A stretch of DNA of 46,945 nt from a virus. The first letter of the stretch is position 1, and each line of letters starts with the position of its first letter. Shown here piece by piece: positions 1-46,945 of the stretch. Where the stretch lies: positions 1 to 46,945 of the IMG/VR virus record IMGVR_UViG_3300020202_000023, one strand, 5' to 3'. The notes under the pieces are model-generated. The model saw only the letters and a list, made by a program, of their open reading frames with translations, had not been told where the DNA came from and searched no databases. Position numbers and translations under genes: made by a program.

Positions 1-127
1 CGCGAGATCGTCTGCTCGAGCATGGGGAACTCGCGCCGGAAGTGGATGGCCCAGCCGACCGACTCGGCGATCTCGCCTCGCATCCAGCGCTCATGCTCGA
101 ACCGGAGCTGCGTCTGGATGGGATCCA
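1..127. repeat. Terminal direct repeat (left copy)
   Basis: These 127 bases are identical to 46819-46945. Joining the ends restores one open terminase frame across the junction. The repeat is therefore best read as assembly overlap of a circular or circularly permuted phage genome of 46,818 bp. A 127-base overlap equals a commonly used assembler k-mer length, which makes a natural packaged terminal repeat less likely. Confidence 0.93.
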
Positions 128-254
128 TCAAGAGGCAGAGCGATTTTCCCGGGCCGGCCGAGCCGCCGAGCAGCGCCTCGCGCGCCTCGCACAGGTGGAA
201 CTCCTGTTGCACGGGCGCCGGATCGTAGAGCGGCTTTTCGGCGACGGCGGTCAC
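1..254 (-). CDS. terL: Terminase large subunit, N-terminal part (split by the window edge)
   Basis: This is the ATPase start of the DNA-packaging motor; the rest is at 45603-46945. Translation from the GTG at 254 gives a Walker A motif, GGSAGPGKS, at residues 30-38. The frame then continues without a stop through the repeated end into the second piece, for 489 residues in all. The GTG overlaps the TGA of the gene at 251-616 in a GTGA junction, so the two are translationally coupled. The break is caused only by where the circle was opened. Confidence 0.93.
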   Translation of the reverse strand, partial: MTAVAEKPLYDPAPVQQEFHLCEAREALLGGSAGPGKSLCLLMDPIQTQLRFEHERWMRGEIAESVGWAIHFRREFPMLEQTIS

Positions 255-616
255 GAGACGAATTCCCAGTCCCGGTCGAATTCTTCGGCCGGGATGACGT
301 GTTTCCTTGGCGCCTCCGTGCGCGGATCCCAGGAAACGAGTTCGACGCTGTACTGGCTGCGGTCGACGAGGAATGCCTTTGCGCCGGTGATCTTGGATTT
401 GTACTGGTCATCACCGTTGCGGTCGCACTGGATGTACTCGTTGTACGTCTCCGCAGCGACGACCTCGCGCTCGATCCAGCCGATCAGGTTCCGGGCAGCA
501 GCGCAGGACAGGGCGATGCGCAGCGGCCCCGTCACAAGGGCAACGCCGGCCGTTCCCGGGTCTTCCGAGTAGCGGACGACGTGCGGCGGCTGGGTGATGG
601 TCCAAGGATCGGTCAT
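251..616 (-). CDS. Hypothetical protein just upstream of terL
   Basis: A 121-residue protein starting at an ATG that overlaps the TGA of the gene at 613-1092; its own stop overlaps the GTG of terL. It has no signal peptide, membrane segment or motif I recognise. The C-terminal half is rich in charged and aromatic residues (EEFDRDWEF at the end). Its position suggests a packaging-linked or late function, but the sequence does not show one. Confidence 0.8.
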   Translation of the reverse strand: MTDPWTITQPPHVVRYSEDPGTAGVALVTGPLRIALSCAAARNLIGWIEREVVAAETYNEYIQCDRNGDDQYKSKITGAKAFLVDRSQYSVELVSWDPRTEAPRKHVIPAEEFDRDWEFVS

Positions 617-2094: not shown

Positions 2095-2295
2095 CTAGGG
2101 GGTCTTCTTGGCGAGGCCGCGCTCGATGAGGCGCTCCCGCACGCGCAGGGTGTGTCCGGTCCACCGGCCGTTGCACGACAGGTCCACGCGGCAGTTGTTG
2201 CAGCTCTGGATCTTGGCGAGCACGAGTTCCACGGTCTCCTCATCGCCGGTGACACCGCAGAACGGGCAGGCCGGCGGCTTCAGCGAGGGCGCCAT
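2095..2295 (-). CDS. Small zinc-ribbon protein
   Basis: A 66-residue protein with CPFCG at residues 10-14 and CNNC at 32-35, a CX2C-X19-CX2C zinc-ribbon arrangement, followed by a basic helix (RVRERLIERGL). Single zinc ribbons of this size usually bind nucleic acid or a protein partner. The start at ATG 2295 is set by AAGGAGGGGAC just before it. That ribosome-binding site lies inside the 3' end of the preceding gene, which overlaps by 16 bases. Confidence 0.78.
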   Translation of the reverse strand: MAPSLKPPACPFCGVTGDEETVELVLAKIQSCNNCRVDLSCNGRWTGHTLRVRERLIERGLAKKTP

Positions 2296-2507
2296 GTCCC
2301 CTCCTTGGCCATGGCCCGCATGCGGTCCGCGTGGAAGTTGTCGAACTCGTCGCCGATGGCGTACTGGTCGGCGGCCATGGAAAGCACTGCGAGCGCGATG
2401 AGGTCGACCAGTTCCTCCGCCAGGTGCGCACGATCGCCGGTCAGCGTCCAGTCCTCCGCCTCCTCCAAGAGTTCGACCACTCGCTTCAGCAGTTCGTCGC
2501 GGGTCAC
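2280..2507 (-). CDS. Small helical protein of the DEL..RV / KEGT family
   Basis: A 75-residue helical protein starting at GTG 2507 (GTGA overlap). The N-terminus TRDELLKRV is like those of the genes ending at 3465 and 3731. AMAKEGT near the C-terminus matches the tail of the latter, but a TGG replaces the expected TGA, adding WRPR before the stop. The stretch AEELVDLIALA faintly recalls MazG-type EExxD helices, too weakly to assign a pyrophosphohydrolase. Function unknown. Confidence 0.75.
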   Translation of the reverse strand: MTRDELLKRVVELLEEAEDWTLTGDRAHLAEELVDLIALAVLSMAADQYAIGDEFDNFHADRMRAMAKEGTWRPR

Positions 2508-2806
2508 GCCACCCCCAGCGCGCGCGCAGCGATGAGCCAGGGGCAGTGCTCGGTGTGGTCCGCGGCGCCGCGCCCGGCCCAGCACCACTTGCAGTACCGA
2601 CGGTCGCGAGGAACACCGCCGACCATGACGGTGTCGCTGGGCCACGGCTGCCCCACGATCGCGATGAGCGCGTCGGCGTAGCGCTGAGCCAGGGCGGGCG
2701 CCGCCAGAGCGTCTTCCAGTGACCCTCCCTGCTGGACGATCGCGCGCTTGAGCTGCGAGAGACTCCCCGGGACCGGCACCACAACGCCCATCTTCACGTC
2801 GCTCAC
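2504..2806 (-). CDS. Hypothetical protein with C-terminal zinc finger
   Basis: A 100-residue protein. The N-terminal 60 residues look helical. The C-terminal part has CKWC, then a histidine and CPW (C-X2-C-X8-H-X2-HCPW), a pattern of small phage zinc-finger proteins. It starts at GTG 2806 inside a GTGA overlap. Its ribosome-binding site AAGGAGGGG is encoded by the KEG codons at the end of the gene upstream. Confidence 0.77.
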   Translation of the reverse strand: MSDVKMGVVVPVPGSLSQLKRAIVQQGGSLEDALAAPALAQRYADALIAIVGQPWPSDTVMVGGVPRDRRYCKWCWAGRGAADHTEHCPWLIAARALGVA

Positions 2807-3468
2807 GTCCCCTCCTTGACGTCTAGCATGGCCTCGATCATTCGCACCGCCTGGTGGTAGGCGACTTCTAAGTCAGCGGCATAGGCAGCGGCCTGGGCGG
2901 CGTAGTGGGCCGCGGTGGCGGCATAGGCGGAGTCCTGGGCGGCGTAGGCAGCGTAGGCAGCGGCGGTCTGGGCGGCAGCCGCAGCATCGGCGGCCTGGGC
3001 AGCGGCAGAGGCGGCGGGCCGGGCGGCGGCATCGGCGGCATAGGCGGCATAGGCAGCAGCGGCACAGGTGGCGACGGCATTGCGAGCCGTTTCCCTATCG
3101 ACGATCGGAGCGCAAGCGCGCAGGGAGACCGCAGATCCTCGATTCCCGAATGCCTCCAGGGCCATCGGCGCGAGCACGCGGACCGCCCAATCTGCCGCGA
3201 CCAGTCCGCGGCGTACAGTTGTGTTAGTATCTGCCCGGGACCCGACAACTTTGACCAACAACGGTCGGAGCAAACGCGTACGCATGTCATCGTCGCCAAT
3301 ACGGTCGTTTAGTCCGCGCACTGCCGACGCAACGACCGGACACGCGCATGTCGGGGCATCCGTGTGCGGCTCACCTGCAAGCCAAGCAACCGCCTCCATA
3401 GCGCACATGCCTTCTTCGCGGGTTTTGTGCGAGCCGTGCCCTAGGGTGATGTTCTCGATGTCCTTCAC
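2803..3468 (-). CDS. Conserved phage/bacterial protein with Ala/Tyr-rich tail
   Basis: A 221-residue protein from GTG 3468. Residues about 15-130 carry a pattern I know from unnamed proteins of phages and high-GC bacteria: CAMEAVAWLAGEPHTDAP, then a run ending in RTRLLRPLL, then LVAADWAVR. The C-terminal 70 residues are a low-complexity series of AYAAYAADAA-type segments, predicted helical. The protein ends in KEGT, whose codons form the next gene's ribosome-binding site. No enzymatic motif is evident. Confidence 0.83.
   Translation of the reverse strand: MKDIENITLGHGSHKTREEGMCAMEAVAWLAGEPHTDAPTCACPVVASAVRGLNDRIGDDDMRTRLLRPLLVKVVGSRADTNTTVRRGLVAADWAVRVLAPMALEAFGNRGSAVSLRACAPIVDRETARNAVATCAAAAYAAYAADAAARPAASAAAQAADAAAAAQTAAAYAAYAAQDSAYAATAAHYAAQAAAYAADLEVAYHQAVRMIEAMLDVKEGT
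2880..3065 (-). repeat. Degenerate Ala/Tyr codon repeats
   Basis: Within the gene at 2803-3468 the DNA is a string of imperfect short units such as GGCGGCGTAGGC and GCATAGGCGGC on the plus strand. They encode AAYAA, AADAA and similar peptides. Unit number probably changes by slippage. The protein frame stays open throughout. Confidence 0.75.
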
Positions 3469-3734
3469 GTCCCCTCCTGCGGTTTGCTTTCGTTGGCCTT
3501 GGCTAGATACCGAAGCGCGGCCGAGCGCAGCGCCCATGCGATAGCCTTGTTGTGCGTCGGCATCGTCTTCGCCCGCTCCACCTCGTCGGCCGCAGCGGAA
3601 AGGTCGGCGGACACCTCTCCAAGCACCACGGGGCGGATAAGGGCGATGATCTGGCGGGCCAGGGGGTCGAGAGGGAACGACGTGCAGCCGTCGAGCGCCG
3701 CCTTCACCCGCTCGACCAGTTCGTCGTAGCTCAC
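3465..3734 (-). CDS. Small helical protein of the DEL..RV / KEGT family
   Basis: An 89-residue protein from GTG 3734 (GTGA overlap). The N-terminus SYDELVERV and the central IIALIRPVVLGEV match the neighbour at 3731-3949 (NDELVERV, VIAIIRPAVLEEV). It ends in QEGT, with the AGGAGGGG ribosome-binding site for the next gene inside those codons. It appears to be one member of a local duplication. There is no membrane segment or catalytic motif; function unknown. Confidence 0.77.
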   Translation of the reverse strand: MSYDELVERVKAALDGCTSFPLDPLARQIIALIRPVVLGEVSADLSAAADEVERAKTMPTHNKAIAWALRSAALRYLAKANESKPQEGT

Positions 3735-3949
3735 GTCCCCTCCTTGGCCATGGCCTCGACAATCCGCGCGGCCTCGATGAGGCCGGACATGTCGACAGAC
3801 TCGGTCGACAGCAGGCGTCCCTTCACCTCCTCCAGCACCGCAGGGCGGATGATGGCGATGACCGCGCGGGCGTAGGCGTCGCTTAACCCCAGCGCCCTTA
3901 GGTACACTGGTAGCCCCTCTTCTACCCGTTCCACCAGCTCGTCGTTCAT
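3731..3949 (-). CDS. Small helical protein of the DEL..RV / KEGT family
   Basis: A 72-residue protein. I place the start at ATG 3949 because AAGGAGG lies just before it and because NDELVERV then aligns with its paralogs; an upstream ATG at 3979 is in frame but adds only ten residues. It ends in AMAKEGT. Between it and the upstream gene, a second frame reads AMAKEAP-stop, apparently a relic of the same tail. Function unknown. Confidence 0.75.
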   Translation of the reverse strand: MNDELVERVEEGLPVYLRALGLSDAYARAVIAIIRPAVLEEVKGRLLSTESVDMSGLIEAARIVEAMAKEGT

Positions 3950-3975
3950 GGGGCCTCCTTGGCCATCGCCGTCGC

Positions 3976-4167
3976 TCATGTCTCCATCCTCCGTCCATCG
4001 ACGTCCACGAAAAACTGGCGCGGGCAGTTCTTACACATGCGCGCCTCGCCTACGTAGTTCGTGACCTGCGCGTCACGACTCGCATCATGGTGGCAGCGAT
4101 GGCACCACCAACGGGCCTTCCACGAGTCGATGAAGCAGCCCTGGCACCCGGGATCGCACAGGCTCAC
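3976..4167 (-). CDS. Small cysteine-rich zinc-binding protein
   Basis: A 63-residue protein with several CX2C-type pairs: CDPGCQGC near residue 4, CHRC at 22-25 and CKNC at 45-48. It probably holds one or two zinc ions. It starts at GTG 4167 inside a GTGA overlap. The family is not recognised. It is one of several short zinc-finger proteins in this arm. Confidence 0.75.
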   Translation of the reverse strand: MSLCDPGCQGCFIDSWKARWWCHRCHHDASRDAQVTNYVGEARMCKNCPRQFFVDVDGRRMET

Positions 4168-4571
4168 CGCACCCTCCGCAGCGTCCCCACGAGCCGACAC
4201 GCCATCCCGCCCCGACCGGACAGCGGAGGCTCGTAGTCGCCGCCTGAGGCGAGCCAGCGGCGCGCGCTCCCGCGCTCCACGGCGCGGGAAAGCTCGCCGC
4301 CGTACATGCGGCGCATCTTCTCCGCGATCTTCGCCTCCTCCCGCAGGTGGGCCTCCCAAGTGCCGTCGGCGGGTCCTGCCCCCGCTGCTGGCGTCCACTT
4401 GATCACGCACGGCACGCACCAGTAAGCGACGGGCTTCCCGTCGAGAAGGACCGCGTTGTAGTCAGTGCGCGGGACAGGTTGCGCGCACCCGTGGCACGGG
4501 GCGAGACTTACCTCCTCGGCATCACCGCGGACGAGTTCGAACCTGTCGCCGACCTTAATCTCGTCGCTCAT
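4164..4571 (-). CDS. Hypothetical protein with a zinc knuckle
   Basis: A 135-residue protein starting at ATG 4571 (ATGA overlap). After a short beta-like start (IKVGDRFELVRGD) it has CHGC near residue 27 and CVPC near residue 56, a CX2C...CX2C pair. The C-terminal half is basic and helical. There is no recognised family; a nucleic-acid or protein adaptor role is possible. Confidence 0.76.
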   Translation of the reverse strand: MSDEIKVGDRFELVRGDAEEVSLAPCHGCAQPVPRTDYNAVLLDGKPVAYWCVPCVIKWTPAAGAGPADGTWEAHLREEAKIAEKMRRMYGGELSRAVERGSARRWLASGGDYEPPLSGRGGMACRLVGTLRRVR

Positions 4572-4942
4572 GGGGTCTCCTTCTCCGGGAACATGGCGCG
4601 CTCGATGCGGAACACGTAGTGACCGCCGCGCCGGCTCTGCACCCAGCAGAGGAACATGATCATGCGGTTCTCCTCGAGCGCCCCGATGAGCGCCTCGTTG
4701 TCCGACCACCCGGCGGTCGAGATGTGGAAGAACGTCGCCCGCTTGGTCTCCTTCTCGTGCCAGCCCCAGTCCGCGTAAGCCCATAGGCTACGCAGGTACG
4801 CGAAGAGGCCCCGCGGGTCTTTCCAGGGCCACGCGCGGATCTTCTCCATGGCCGCTTCGAGCTGCTCGTCGGACATGTTCACTCCGTCGCAGTCGTGGCC
4901 CTTCGTCTCGGGCTCGCCGCACATCAGGCACTCCGCGCTCAT
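4568..4942 (-). CDS. Hypothetical protein with N-terminal cysteine cluster
   Basis: A 124-residue protein from ATG 4942 (ATGA overlap). It begins with CLMCG and a further His-Asp-Cys (residues 5-18), likely a small zinc site. The remainder is rich in tryptophan and phenylalanine (WPWKDPRGLFAYLRSLWAYA), suggesting a compact helical fold. The end, KETP, is encoded by codons that provide GGAG for the next gene. Function unknown. Confidence 0.76.
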   Translation of the reverse strand: MSAECLMCGEPETKGHDCDGVNMSDEQLEAAMEKIRAWPWKDPRGLFAYLRSLWAYADWGWHEKETKRATFFHISTAGWSDNEALIGALEENRMIMFLCWVQSRRGGHYVFRIERAMFPEKETP

Positions 4943-5145
4943 GGCTGCCTCCTGTCTCGGTCCGGGCCGACGTGCGCCCAGCAGCGGCCGCGGACGATGT
5001 CGGAGATGTGCTGCCGAGCGACCCCGAACTCCCGGGCGAGCGCGGCGTTCGTGGCGCCGGAGGCGGCGAGGGCGCGGATAGCGCGCACCTTCTCCTCCGT
5101 CAGCCTCGCCCGCGGGTGCTCCTCACCCGGCCGATACCGTCCCAT
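4939..5145 (-). CDS. Small helix-turn-helix DNA-binding protein
   Basis: A 68-residue protein. Residues 10-55 form a clear helix-turn-helix: LTEEKVRAIRALAASG, then NAALAREFGVARQHISDIVRG followed by W. This layout is typical of short phage DNA-binding proteins related to the binding domains of homing-type nucleases. I chose ATG 5145; a TTG at 5154 is also in frame. No Shine-Dalgarno is visible, so translation may be leaderless. Two AACCAG motifs lie directly upstream, making it a candidate regulator of its own promoter. Confidence 0.8.
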   Translation of the reverse strand: MGRYRPGEEHPRARLTEEKVRAIRALAASGATNAALAREFGVARQHISDIVRGRCWAHVGPDRDRRQP

Positions 5146-5152
5146 CGTTAGC

Positions 5153-5172
5153 AACCAGCCTATCGCAACCAG
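5153..5172 (-). promoter_or_regulatory. Direct repeat of CTGGTTGC before the HTH gene
   Basis: On the minus strand CTGGTTGC occurs twice, 14 bases apart, immediately upstream of the start at 5145. The same hexamer CTGGTT occurs in most other noncoding gaps here. It is likely an operator or part of the promoter. No convincing -10/-35 pair could be fixed. Confidence 0.45.
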
Positions 5173-5352: not shown

Positions 5353-5384
5353 CACCTCCGTCTGGCTACAACCAGACGGAGGTG
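5353..5384 (-). promoter_or_regulatory. Perfect 13-bp inverted repeat sequestering a Shine-Dalgarno
   Basis: On the minus strand CACCTCCGTCTGG, a 6-base loop TTGTAG, and CCAGACGGAGGTG. The 3' arm ends in GGAGGTG, the ribosome-binding site of the peptide at 5271-5348, and the 5' arm holds its exact complement. RNA reading through from 5430 would fold it shut. RNA starting at the local promoter (start expected near 5377) would lack most of the 5' arm. Confidence 0.72.
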
Positions 5385-5412
5385 ATATCGCACTAGCTGG
5401 CTAGCAAGTCAA
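5384..5412 (-). promoter_or_regulatory. Candidate leftward promoter with internal TGCTAGCCAG element
   Basis: TTGACT (5412-5407), a 17-base spacer and GATATC (5389-5384) on the minus strand. The -35 is good and the -10 moderate. The spacer begins with TGCTAGCCAG, found also at 9658-9667 and, inverted, at 14164-14173. It is likely a repressor or activator site. Confidence 0.5.
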
Positions 5413-5429
5413 TGTAGTTGCTGCTAGCG

Positions 5430-6125
5430 CTATCGCGCCGCCTGAGTCTTACGGCGGGCGTCTTCGATCCACGTATGTAGCTCCGTGCTCGGGCCGCTGC
5501 GGGTCTGCTTTCCGAACGCCTCGATGAGCTGGCCGAACTTCGGACCGTTGTTCCCGTCGAGCATGATCACCGGGTGCGCGTACTTCCCATCAGCGGGCGG
5601 CTTCCGGTATAGACCCTTGATCTCCGCCTGCGCGGCGTTGAAGACCTCCATCACGGCGGCGTGCGAGCGCTTGCGCGCCTCGGCGCGCTTCGCCGGATCT
5701 GTCTCCGTCCGTGCGACATCGAGCGCGGCGTCGATGGCCGGCACCGCGCGCTCGGCGAACATCGCGTTCGCTCGGTCTGCAACCTCGTGGTAGCGGTGGG
5801 CCTCTTCCTCGGGGAGGCCCATGGCGGCCATGGCTGCCACCCGGCGCTTTTCGTACACGGCCGCGCGAGAGGCGTAAAAGCCGGCGCGCATCCGCTCGAC
5901 CCGCTCGTCGTCATCGAGGGGGCGCCCGCTCGGCGCCACGGCCAGGCGGGGAACCGAGCGCGCAGGCGCCGAGCGCGCTTCGGGCGCGCGGGCGAGCCCC
6001 TGTTCCGAGCGCTCAGGATCCGCCGCCGCCGCTGGCGCGCGTGTCCGGGGGGACGCGAGGTAAAGCCCGACGCCCGCGAGAGCGAAGAGGCCTGCGCCAA
6101 CGGCGACAGCAGATCGAGTGCGCAT
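5430..6125 (-). CDS. Membrane-anchored or secreted helical protein
   Basis: A 231-residue protein. Residues 5-25 are a hydrophobic segment after MRTR, i.e. a signal peptide or N-terminal anchor. Next comes a disordered Ala/Pro/Arg linker to about residue 70, then a highly charged helical domain to the end. The bulk would lie in the periplasm of a Gram-negative host. Together with the next upstream gene it forms a pair of exported proteins. Exported accessory proteins in temperate phages often act on the infected cell surface, but nothing here identifies the function. Confidence 0.78.
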   Translation of the reverse strand: MRTRSAVAVGAGLFALAGVGLYLASPRTRAPAAAADPERSEQGLARAPEARSAPARSVPRLAVAPSGRPLDDDERVERMRAGFYASRAAVYEKRRVAAMAAMGLPEEEAHRYHEVADRANAMFAERAVPAIDAALDVARTETDPAKRAEARKRSHAAVMEVFNAAQAEIKGLYRKPPADGKYAHPVIMLDGNNGPKFGQLIEAFGKQTRSGPSTELHTWIEDARRKTQAAR

Positions 6126-43400: not shown

Positions 43401-45602
43401 CTATGAGGGCGGGACCTGCTCGGGAGCGGGTTGCGGGGCGGGGCCGGGGACGCCGGGGCCCTCGGGCGGGGGCGGGCCGCCTCCGGGCCCCGGCGGGGAC
43501 ATGCTAGGAGACATGCTAGGTGGCATGCCTGGTTGCATGCCCATGCCCGGCATCTGCTGCGGGGGCGGCGGACGCGGGCCGAGGAAGCGGACCATGTCGT
43601 GGAAGCCGCGGGCCTTGAGCGACTTGACGATCGCCTCGTAGATGAACGACGGAGGGAACATCTGCATGGCGATGGGCGGGGGGAGGGCCTGCATCATCCC
43701 GAGGAGCTGGTCGGCCTCGCTGATCCGCTGCGCCTTGGAGGCGAAGCGCGTGTCGGCGGTAAAAGCGATCTCGAAGTCCTCGGCGTACATCTCGCGGCCG
43801 ACGGTGATCGGCTGCGTCTCCATGGTCCGGGGATCGATGACGTCGAGGATCTCGTAGTCCTCGAGAAAGACGGCGTTGAGCCGCGCGTTGTTGCGCATCA
43901 CCTGCCCCAGGAACTCGAGATAGTTCTGGGCGAGGACGGTCAGCTGCTTCGTCGCCTGCTCCACGCGGGTGGCGATCCCGCGGAAAGTCTCGTTCGCCTT
44001 CCCGGGCTCGCCCGAGAGGACGTCAGGCGCCGAGGACACACCGTCGGCGCTCTCGAGCGCGAGGCGGACCATGTCGAGGAGCTGGGGGTTCGCCGGGGGG
44101 AACTGGACGACCTTGAAAGCCTTGTCGAGCTGCTCGGAACTGACGCCCCTGACGTTGTGGATCTTGCCGGGCGAAAGCTGAAGCTCGCCGGTCTCCATCT
44201 TGACGCTCTCGGGCTTGATGATGGTGACGACGTTGGCGAGCGTGGCCGCGTCGGAGAACTGCGAGGCCCAGGTGTTCGCGGCCTTGTTGAACTCCTCGAG
44301 TAGAAGCCCGATCCCGAGGCCGGCGGAGCCGTCTGGGTTCTCGATACAGACCCCGTGCGAAAAGGGCTCGATGGGGACCATGCGCACGGGCTTCGGCTGC
44401 TCGCCTGGCACCTTCATCCACGACGGCGGCTCGGGCGGCATCATGGCCTGCTGGCCGAGGGTCCCCTCGAGCTCCGCCGCCTCCTCGGGCGGCACGTCGG
44501 GCTGGGCGAGGCGGTCGCGGACCGCCTGCTCTTGCGCCTGCACCTGCTGGAACATCTGCGTCGCCTGGTTGAAGGATTCCCACTCCTTCATCTCGCGCTC
44601 GAAGCGCGCGCGGTCCTTCCAGTCCGGCTCCTCGCGCAAGGTGAGCGCGACGACGGTCATCGTCTTCGGCTCGACGGTGACGACGACGGGGCGCTCCTCC
44701 TCTTGGCCGTAGAGCTTGCACCAGCCGTGATACTCGAAGAACACGTACGGCGCGGCCTTCGAGGCGGCCGGCTTTTCACGCCCCTCGAGCTTGTCCATGA
44801 CCGGGCGGACCTTCTGCTCGAGCCCGTCATCGAACGAGGCGACCTTGTTCTTGTCGAAGATGCGCTCGATGTCGGCGTAGAGGCCATCGGCCTCGAGCCG
44901 CTTGAGCTCGTGCTTGAATTTCCGCACGATCCGCCACTTCCGGGGCACATCCGAGAAGTCGACGGCGGTGGTCTTCCACGTGTAGGGCCAGCCGAACTCC
45001 TCGCAGTTGAGGTGCTCGTGCCGGTTGCGCTTTCCGGCGATGTCCCGGTAGGAGTGCATCACGCAATCGCCGTTCGCGATGTACTCGTGCAGGCATCGGC
45101 GGTTCTGGCGGAGAAAGTCCGGGATCTCCTTCCGGATCTGCCAGTTCTGGTGAAGCGTGACGGTGTCGGCGCGCTCCTGGCTCATCCGCGAGGACGGGAT
45201 GGCGGTGAAAACCATGTCCTGGTCGGGGAACATCTCGGCATAGAGCCGATGGACGAGCCGGAGCTCGCGTTCGAGCATGACGGGGATGTGCGCGTTGGCG
45301 CAGTCCTCGAAAGGGAACGATTTCTTGTCGAGAGAGCCGGTCCGCAGCTTCGCGCGCTCGGCGCGGCGCTGCCGGTAGGGCTCCATCGAGTCCCAGTCCT
45401 CGGTGACGTCCTCAACTACCTTCTTGGCGAGACCTTTGAGGAACTCTTGCCCCTCTTTCGATGTGATGTAGTGAGGGACAAGGTTGATCGCCTCTTCGGG
45501 GAGGTCTTCTGGGGGCGGGACGAGCTTGACCGTGACCGATCCATCGTCGTTACGCTCGACTTCGCTTTCAGTCTTCTCGTTGCCGTAGTCATCAGACGCC
45601 AT
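43401..45602 (-). CDS. Portal protein (P22 gp1-like)
   Basis: A 733-residue protein; P22 portal has 725. Directly downstream of terL, starting at ATG 45602, two bases from the terL stop. The N-terminal region has WDSMEPYRQRRAERAKLRTG and KSFPFEDCANAHIPVM; the stem/crown region has GLGIGLLLEEFNKAAN, SGEPGKANETFRGIATRVEQ. It ends with a long Pro/Gly/Met tail. It forms the 12-subunit ring through which DNA passes. Confidence 0.92.
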   Translation of the reverse strand: MASDDYGNEKTESEVERNDDGSVTVKLVPPPEDLPEEAINLVPHYITSKEGQEFLKGLAKKVVEDVTEDWDSMEPYRQRRAERAKLRTGSLDKKSFPFEDCANAHIPVMLERELRLVHRLYAEMFPDQDMVFTAIPSSRMSQERADTVTLHQNWQIRKEIPDFLRQNRRCLHEYIANGDCVMHSYRDIAGKRNRHEHLNCEEFGWPYTWKTTAVDFSDVPRKWRIVRKFKHELKRLEADGLYADIERIFDKNKVASFDDGLEQKVRPVMDKLEGREKPAASKAAPYVFFEYHGWCKLYGQEEERPVVVTVEPKTMTVVALTLREEPDWKDRARFEREMKEWESFNQATQMFQQVQAQEQAVRDRLAQPDVPPEEAAELEGTLGQQAMMPPEPPSWMKVPGEQPKPVRMVPIEPFSHGVCIENPDGSAGLGIGLLLEEFNKAANTWASQFSDAATLANVVTIIKPESVKMETGELQLSPGKIHNVRGVSSEQLDKAFKVVQFPPANPQLLDMVRLALESADGVSSAPDVLSGEPGKANETFRGIATRVEQATKQLTVLAQNYLEFLGQVMRNNARLNAVFLEDYEILDVIDPRTMETQPITVGREMYAEDFEIAFTADTRFASKAQRISEADQLLGMMQALPPPIAMQMFPPSFIYEAIVKSLKARGFHDMVRFLGPRPPPPQQMPGMGMQPGMPPSMSPSMSPPGPGGGPPPPEGPGVPGPAPQPAPEQVPPS
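43496..43552 (-). repeat. Short Met-Pro-Ser codon repeat in the portal tail
   Basis: Two near-identical units ACATGCTAGGAG and ACATGCTAGGTG followed by GCATGCCTGG units (plus strand). They encode MSPSMSPP and related peptides in the portal's C-terminal tail. Likely slippage-prone low complexity. Confidence 0.6.
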
Positions 45603-46945
45603 TTAGAACCCCCCATAGCCATATCGACCGCCCGCGCGCTGCCGCTTCGTGCGGCGGCGCTCCTCGAGCTCGTCAACCTGTCGTGATCGGCGCACCGGCG
45701 CGGAATCCGACTTCGGAACGACCGCGCGGTACATGCACGCGTAGAGAACCGTGTCGAGCCAGTGGTCATCGCCCCCGTCCTCGGGCAGTTCGGGGTCGGT
45801 CTTGTCGGTCGGGATGGCCGGGATCGTGCGGATCGTCTCCCGGCAGGTGTCGAAGAAGCGGATCGCGGGGATCCCGCCCTCACCCGAGCGATCTTTGAGT
45901 CTGGTGATGAACTGCTGGACGCTGGCGTGTCTGTTTTTCGTGCATTTTTCCCAGAAAACGCCCGCCTCGCTCATCGTCTCCGCGATGGTCGGCCCGATCG
46001 TCCCTCTTTCCTCCCAGATCTGGGTGTCGGCCGGGCCGGTGAGGCGTGAACAGTCCTTGTTGAGGTCCCACTCGTCGGCGGCCATCTCGATATCGCGGAT
46101 CTGCTCGGCGACTTCCGAGGAGTCCTTCTTGCGGAAGTTCTTTTCGCGGTAGCAGATCAGGTTTCCGTCGGTGTCGACCGCGAACCAGAGGACGACGCAC
46201 CAACTTTTGTAACCCCAGTCCATGGCGCGGAAGCGCGTCCACCCGCTCGGGATGCGAAACGGCTTGACGACGTGGATGCGGGCGTCGAATTCCTCGGCGA
46301 AGAACGCGCCGGCCACGACATACCAGTCGCCTTCGAGGAGGGCGCGCCGGATGTGCGAGGGTTTGTCGCGCAGCTCGATCTCGTACTGCGCGCGGAACCC
46401 CGGATCTGGGTTGTCCTTCAGGGTGGCGGGGATGAAGATCCGGGAGCGCGTCTCAGAAGTCCCGTCACCACGGGCGATCTTGCGGGTGAGGAGCACGCGG
46501 CCCCGGGGGGCGGGGTCGACGAAGTAGCTCCGGACCCAGTTCCCGGCGGGGTTCGTGGCGGCGCGTATGCGCAGACGCGGGCGGAGGCCAGGATCTGAGC
46601 AGCGAAGGCGGGTGTTGACGAGCTGGTACTGCTCCTCGGAGAACTCCCAGAGCTCGTCATAGGCGATGTGCGTGTACTCGTTCGACTGGTAGTTAAACCG
46701 GTCGTCGTCGTTCTTCATGTGGCCGAACGAAAACTTGTAGCCACAGGAGAAAGTCCAGCGGTGCGCCTGGCTTTCGTACTTGGCGCCGGGGTCGATGAGG
46801 GGGAAGAGCCGCTGCGAGCGCGAGATCGTCTGCTCGAGCATGGGGAACTCGCGCCGGAAGTGGATGGCCCAGCCGACCGACTCGGCGATCTCGCCTCGCA
46901 TCCAGCGCTCATGCTCGAACCGGAGCTGCGTCTGGATGGGATCCA
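45603..46945 (-). CDS. terL: Terminase large subunit, main part (continues at 1-254)
   Basis: Carries the rest of the packaging motor. Walker B is THIAYDEL; the ATPase coupling motif is ATNPAG; KDNPDPGFRAQYE is usual in this family. The nuclease domain has MDWGY (first acidic residue), DTQIWEERG (second) and DDHWLDTVLYA (third), all present. Full length with the other piece is 489 residues, as expected. Headful packaging is plausible since P22-like, but cannot be told from sequence alone. Confidence 0.95.
   Translation of the reverse strand, partial: DPIQTQLRFEHERWMRGEIAESVGWAIHFRREFPMLEQTISRSQRLFPLIDPGAKYESQAHRWTFSCGYKFSFGHMKNDDDRFNYQSNEYTHIAYDELWEFSEEQYQLVNTRLRCSDPGLRPRLRIRAATNPAGNWVRSYFVDPAPRGRVLLTRKIARGDGTSETRSRIFIPATLKDNPDPGFRAQYEIELRDKPSHIRRALLEGDWYVVAGAFFAEEFDARIHVVKPFRIPSGWTRFRAMDWGYKSWCVVLWFAVDTDGNLICYREKNFRKKDSSEVAEQIRDIEMAADEWDLNKDCSRLTGPADTQIWEERGTIGPTIAETMSEAGVFWEKCTKNRHASVQQFITRLKDRSGEGGIPAIRFFDTCRETIRTIPAIPTDKTDPELPEDGGDDHWLDTVLYACMYRAVVPKSDSAPVRRSRQVDELEERRRTKRQRAGGRYGYGGF
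46819..46945. repeat. Terminal direct repeat (right copy)
   Basis: Identical to 1-127; see the left copy. The preceding base differs from any continuation at the left edge, so the overlap is exactly 127. Confidence 0.93.

Follow-up and report, generated by a model that had tools for sequence, protein, structure and literature searches.

Small genes and repeated junctions of the block

The DNA analysed here, referred to as the window, spans 46,945 bases and is a virus record from IMG/VR; it contains a portal gene (43401-45602, -) and a terminase gene (45603-46901, -). Use of the terminase as a query yielded three related records. When gene order was compared with that of the relative L006, window positions 1-255 ran on into the terminase end (45603-46901); since the left end joins the right-end terminase in the gene order of relatives, the window is best read as circularly permuted or terminally continuous.

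Our analysis concerns six genes, A to F, from an operon whose genes are small and in most cases overlap; all six are encoded on the minus strand. Gene A (3731-3949, -) is an open reading frame whose translation of 72 aa begins with MNDELVERV and ends in EAMAKEGT; its flanks are GGCGATGGCCAAGGAGG and GGCCATGGCCAAGGAGG. It has two in-frame starts with Shine-Dalgarno sequences (SDs) in the region 3946-3990 (-): ATG 3949, with AAGGAGG at 4 nt, and ATG 3979, with GGAGG at 8 nt, which gives a 5' extension. Gene B (3465-3734, -; 89 aa, GTG start) ends in SKPQEGT. Gene C (2803-3468, -; 221 aa, GTG start) is alanine-rich in its 3' half, resembles phrog_3416 and ends in LDVKEGT. Gene D (2504-2806, -; 100 aa, GTG start) could be assigned to no family. 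Gene E (2280-2507, -; 75 aa, GTG start) ends in AMAKEGTWRPR; its start, GGGGGTGGCGTGA, has neither a strong SD nor the repeated cassette, which occurs at the 3' end of E only. Gene F (2095-2295, -; 66 aa), a zinc-ribbon-like gene, starts from the E/F junction and overlaps E by 16 nt. Profile searches with F gave weak matches only, all below threshold; among these, similarity to Lar-type restriction alleviation proteins is of a kind common for zinc ribbons.

The junctions between these genes resemble one another. J0 (3946-3969, -; GCGATGGCCAAGGAGGCCCCATGA) combines a relic tail, AMAKEAP-stop, with an SD and the start of A. The tail lies in the frame of the upstream gene at 3976-4167, but past that gene's stop; a previous sequence-only reading had recognised this relic and had put it at 3950-3978. 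J1 (A/B; 3731-3754, -; GCCATGGCCAAGGAGGGGACGTGA) resembles J0 and J5 (E/F; 2292-2315, -; GCCATGGCCAAGGAGGGGACATGG) in its left part, and J2 and J3 in its right part. J2 (B/C; 3465-3478, -) and J3 (C/D; 2803-2816, -) are both AGGAGGGGACGTGA, and form the left and right copies of a 14-nt direct repeat around C. The 20-mer GCCATGGCCAAGGAGGGGAC was confirmed at 2296-2315 and 3735-3754 (-), with 0 occurrences expected in shuffles. Likewise, the 15-mer AAGGAGGGGACGTGA is exact at 2803-2817 and 3731-3745, with one mismatch at 3465-3479 and two at 2292-2306, against 0.07 expected.

Translation bore out the N-termini NDELVERV, SYDELVERV and TRDELLKRV and the tails AMAKEGT, QEGT, VKEGT and AMAKEGTWRPR, which the sequence-only reading had taken as marks of three adjacent, duplicated small genes. 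This proposal held for A and B, which are adjacent and clearly related (50% identity over 44 aa, 1e-7; 76% identity over a 58-nt stretch of DNA) and which we regard as tandem paralogues. E is not adjacent, since C and D separate it from B. The similarity of B to E is marginal (1e-4; shuffle P 4e-4), and A and E show no significant similarity beyond the tail (shuffle P 0.22, tail excluded); E is a probable distant paralogue of the other two. Gene C is unrelated to A, B and E, and yet, as had been pointed out, it carries the same tail, ending in VKEGT.

At the equivalent position, L006 encodes a weak homologue of the E/A/B profile (E 0.003; 30% identity to E) that ends in RIRALKDKP, with no strong SD; a helical end of the RxRAxxKx type therefore seems native to the family. 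The proposed database search for further relatives of A, B and E gave none, either by peptide pattern in IMG/VR and genomes or by tblastn against a phage collection. The structure model of E comprises three helices, at moderate confidence, and found no fold match.

The shared tail as a ribosome-binding site

A 4-nt NTGA overlap fixes the frame of the upstream gene, in which GGAGG placed four bases before the start reads x-E-x-x-stop and AAGGAGG supplies K-E. The A/B, B/C and C/D junctions have this overlap, and in each of them the last part of the upstream gene contains an SD; an SD is likewise present at E/F, but the overlap there measures 16 nt. Among 113 NTGA junctions with GGAGG in the window and related viral loci, a spacing of four was the commonest (39), and all 39 read x-E-x-x-stop. 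Because overlap and spacing together force this ending, the KEGT tail is a ribosome-binding site read as protein, ordinary for coupled overlapping genes, and in this the sequence-only reading was right. Other SD-coded tails, at coupled-type junctions of the same operon that read the SD in other frames, are RRMET at 3979, KETP at 4571 and RRQP at 4942. We rejected KEGT as a functional peptide, as the tail varies with the SD frame and is extended in E. That extension, AMAKEGTWRPR, had been explained by a change of TGA to TGG; the extended tail is real, and as far as this window shows the change may have run either way.

SDs inside overlapping gene pairs, with termination-reinitiation, are established in bacteria and archaea, and most ATGA/GTGA pairs in most phyla have an SD (PMC6728339). 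The block resembles the pairs of Huber et al. 2019 (PMC6728339) in its 4-nt overlaps and in the SD within the upstream gene end; that study does not deal with repeated identical junctions flanking inserted genes, and the coupling of translation across A to F is here a prediction from sequence.

Positions 4939-5154 (-) encode a 71-aa helix-turn-helix protein that matches the C-terminal part of the endonuclease family phrog_6156 (E 9e-12) and also HNH endonuclease families, without containing the HNH part.

Direct repeats around C-family genes

Residues 8-204 of the 221 in gene C match the PHROG profile phrog_3416 (E 4.7e-10), which we take to be a family without assigned function. For this family, no flanking direct repeats are recorded in the literature as far as it was searched. 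Of 260 C-family loci, 80 were retained, and the 79 viral loci examined encode relatives of C; the pattern used found no relatives in GTDB genome contigs. An alignment of 49 sequences defines a conserved domain with invariant C22, M24, E25, A31, G32, P39, C41, N54, D55, R63 and R87, modelled as six helices with high confidence (pLDDT 96). The domain has no counterpart among solved structures (best E 5.9), matches only unnamed phage proteins in BFVD, and finds nothing in Pfam except one weak single-member match. No recombinase match was obtained by profile or fold, and a mobility role for C is speculation. Four contigs (L013, L014, L022 and L030) end inside the alanine-rich repeat of C, probably through assembly breaks; since many C-family contigs break there, complete C genes are undercounted.

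Diverse junctions precede C in the 79 relatives, and the idea that the family always comes with AAGGAGGNNACGTGA was rejected. A scan for like junctions within contigs found that the tail of C can repeat that of the preceding gene, as LVAALEAAP does in L029 and L042; in L075, PPKEKSE is repeated around C. We then compared the 44 nt ending at each gene start with the 65 nt around the stop of the same gene. A score of at least 12 was reached by 9 of 56 C genes, as against 3 of 3080 cross-locus pairs and 4 of 557 other genes at the same loci, with gene A of the window among these four; this threshold was picked after the scores had been seen, and the contrast is stable from 11 to 16.

For a larger control we took the complete records of some 50 of these viruses, in which 15 of 2334 other genes (~0.6%) reached the threshold. 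A liberal control, which allowed each control gene its best SD-bearing start, set 9/56 for C against 14/2334 (Fisher 7e-10, and about 1e-9 for 14-15/2334). With L012 added after the fact, the counts are 10/57 for C and 15/2334 for other genes; when downstream flanks were shuffled among the C genes, none of 20000 permutations reached 10, the maximum being 4. Exclusion of the window and of the two loci with homologous neighbours left 6/53 (P 4e-6). A separate greedy gene call recognised 28 C genes, 1 of them at threshold; we attribute this low count to C genes mis-framed or mis-started in the alanine-rich region, judged the call unsuitable for C statistics and used it for non-C controls only. 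No repeat is seen at about five-sixths of the C-family genes. The part of this analysis worth following is that such direct repeats of the junction are enriched around a single phage gene family.

The repeats differ in sequence from virus to virus and range from about 11 to 47 nt. They are exact in L050 (33/33 nt, extending seven codons into the downstream gene), L065 (17/17 nt), L088 (16/16 nt) and the window, where AGGAGGGGACGTGA stands on both sides of C (14/14); that of L029 is 27 nt long, that of L042 is 37 nt long with 34/37 matching, and that of L075 is 47 nt long with 3 variable positions, its second copy lying past the C stop. The right copy typically reaches as far as the start codon of the following gene. 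In L065, L087, L088 and the window, this copy also encodes the short, variable tail of the C protein and its stop. What recurs is an arrangement, a gene body set between two copies of its own local junction.

C is similar to neither of its neighbours, U and D, except in the tandem copies of L012, and U and D are homologous to each other in L029 and L042 only; paralogy of U and D was therefore rejected as a general cause of the repeats. L029 (2026-4522) and L042 (2350-4000) carry arrays of a second small family, W (LARRAVACKxWRWMPGM...), whose tail LVAALEAAP is the ribosome-binding site of the next gene, and the C genes inside these arrays share it. Positions 3474-5564 of L012 hold tandem C-family copies, the third of them truncated. 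Of the full copies, the second apparently uses CTG as its start, within a CTGA overlap (L012:4381); it follows an unrelated gene whose end, ELAKEAT, resembles the ELAKEET of the C copy.

Origin of the repeated junctions

The spacer GGAC is common to four SD junctions of the block, of which three start with GTG. It was shared in 0 of 140 pairs of window and other junctions, and spacers agreed in 21 of 578 pairs between other contigs. Because the spacer is peculiar to the block, the junction sequence must have been copied locally. The sequence-only reading had gone further and suggested that the tail and ribosome-binding site spread as an independent unit. The searches that it proposed speak against this: the exact 20-mer has no further copy in IMG/VR, none of three relatives contains a related pattern, and C-family genes elsewhere have different junctions. 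On these grounds we rejected a cassette that moves freely on its own. Instead of a mobile element, the copied stretch resembles a footprint left when a gene was inserted or duplicated.

The explanation that we favour, and consider somewhat more probable than not, is that a coupled array of small genes grew by local duplication and by insertion of a C-family gene, with junctions copied along with gene bodies. At each NTGA overlap, a strong SD (AAGGAGG, 4 nt before the start) within the last upstream codons would dictate a tail x-E-G-T-stop. Local duplication would have enlarged the array, giving A and B, probably E, and the relic before A, and an unrelated C-family gene would have been inserted into it. 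If the junction (last codons, stop, SD and start) was copied with the gene body, the new gene and its displaced neighbour would each keep a ribosome-binding site and start. The repeats may have arisen at insertion or duplication, through recombination or template switching. An empty site, with U and D adjacent and a single junction copy, turned up neither in the related records (about 1.9 Mb) nor when two flanks served as queries against the phage collection, so we infer the insertion step at C loci. Several other observations go against this explanation: most C-family genes lack a repeat, only 1 of the 28 C genes in the greedy call reached the threshold, the repeats of about 11 to 47 nt are unlike a transposase footprint, and the 20-nt identity of the A and E tails, in genes otherwise dissimilar, goes beyond simple tandem duplication. 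Moreover, the left part of J1 corresponds to J0 and the right part to J2/J3, so that more than one event would be needed.

The main rival to junction-duplicating insertion is the birth and death of tandem arrays, in which genes duplicate with their junctions, bodies are lost or replaced, and the repeats are the remaining relic tails and ribosome-binding sites. The relic AMAKEAP before A and the paralogy of A and B agree with it, as do the W-family arrays around C with homologous U and D in L029 and L042, the tandem C copies in G004 and G043, and the mini-ORF MKTLGTSDPTEPPKEKSE after C in L075. Yet at no fewer than eight other C loci the neighbours are homologous neither to C nor to each other, so array decay would have to remove the lost copy exactly at the junction each time, and we hold this account to be rather unlikely. 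Spread of the tail and ribosome-binding site by recombination between junctions, like the boundary sequences of phage mosaicism, would explain the 20-nt identity of the A and E tails amid unlike flanks, the mosaic make-up of J1, and the W tails on the unrelated C gene of L029 and L042. With the four copies confined to one 1.5-kb block, nothing but near or antisense matches in the rest of the window, and the database results given above, we rate it as decidedly unlikely. Short conserved boundary sequences have been proposed for phage mosaicism, as cited in PMC3029335. The boundary sequences described there are likewise short, shared, placed at gene borders and potential guides of exchange, whereas here the shared sequence flanks single genes inside one genome.

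Convergence without copying would have a strong SD, a fixed spacing and the NTGA overlap force similar tails. The geometry does impose x-E-x-x-stop, KE tails occur in unrelated viruses (for example ELAKEET in L012), and convergence is still sufficient for the KEGT tail alone. It is disfavoured for the junctions of this window, and very improbable as a full account, because chance accounts neither for the shared GGAC spacer nor for the 20-mer, and because identical 11-mers precede starts in 9 of 988 pairs within contigs versus 8 of 39198 between them, three of the nine being a periodic low-complexity run in L068. A repeated regulatory element read by a phage factor would also place an SD-containing repeat beside several starts in one genome, as do the Start-Associated Sequences of cluster K mycobacteriophages (13 bp, GGGATAGGAGCCC, 11-19 copies conserved across the cluster, mostly ahead of genes whose upstream gap exceeds 50 bp; PMC3203893). 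Both are short SD-containing repeats just 5' of the starts of unrelated genes in one phage. The repeats here have another sequence, number only four in one block, lie inside overlaps rather than intergenic gaps, differ in every virus and have no Rfam match, which makes a regulatory element exceedingly improbable.

We also considered, as a tentative and unlikely extension of our favoured explanation, that the C family is a single gene able to move, which enters phage operons at the starts of genes and leaves the junction duplicated. Such a gene would borrow from its target the ribosome-binding site, the start codon and often the stop and last residues, and would fit seamlessly between overlapping genes. 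Transposable elements with target-site duplication resemble the C genes in having direct repeats immediately at their flanks (9/56 versus 0.6% of other genes), but not in repeat length, which is not constant around C. Morons and other small phage mobile elements are single small genes added between phage genes; C loci differ in having no recognised transposase or target duplication of fixed length, and in repeats that include the ribosome-binding site and start.

Phages gain and lose small genes constantly, and tightly overlapping operons offer no gap for insertion. Junction duplication, if true, would let a gene be added without depriving the next one of its ribosome-binding site, would leave a searchable footprint, and would account for tails common to unrelated neighbouring proteins, such as KEGT, LVAALEAAP and PPKEKSE. 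If the C family were active in this process, its members would count as mobile genes of a very small type.

Repeat-bounded genes were also seen outside the C family. In L147, another C-carrying virus, a 60-aa ORF (5353-5536) lies between exact 34-nt repeats, CGCCTCCGACGCGGGCCGGGAGGGGACGTAGATG, that contain a ribosome-binding site and start; further such cases are L182:17571-17853 and L181:12438-12720.
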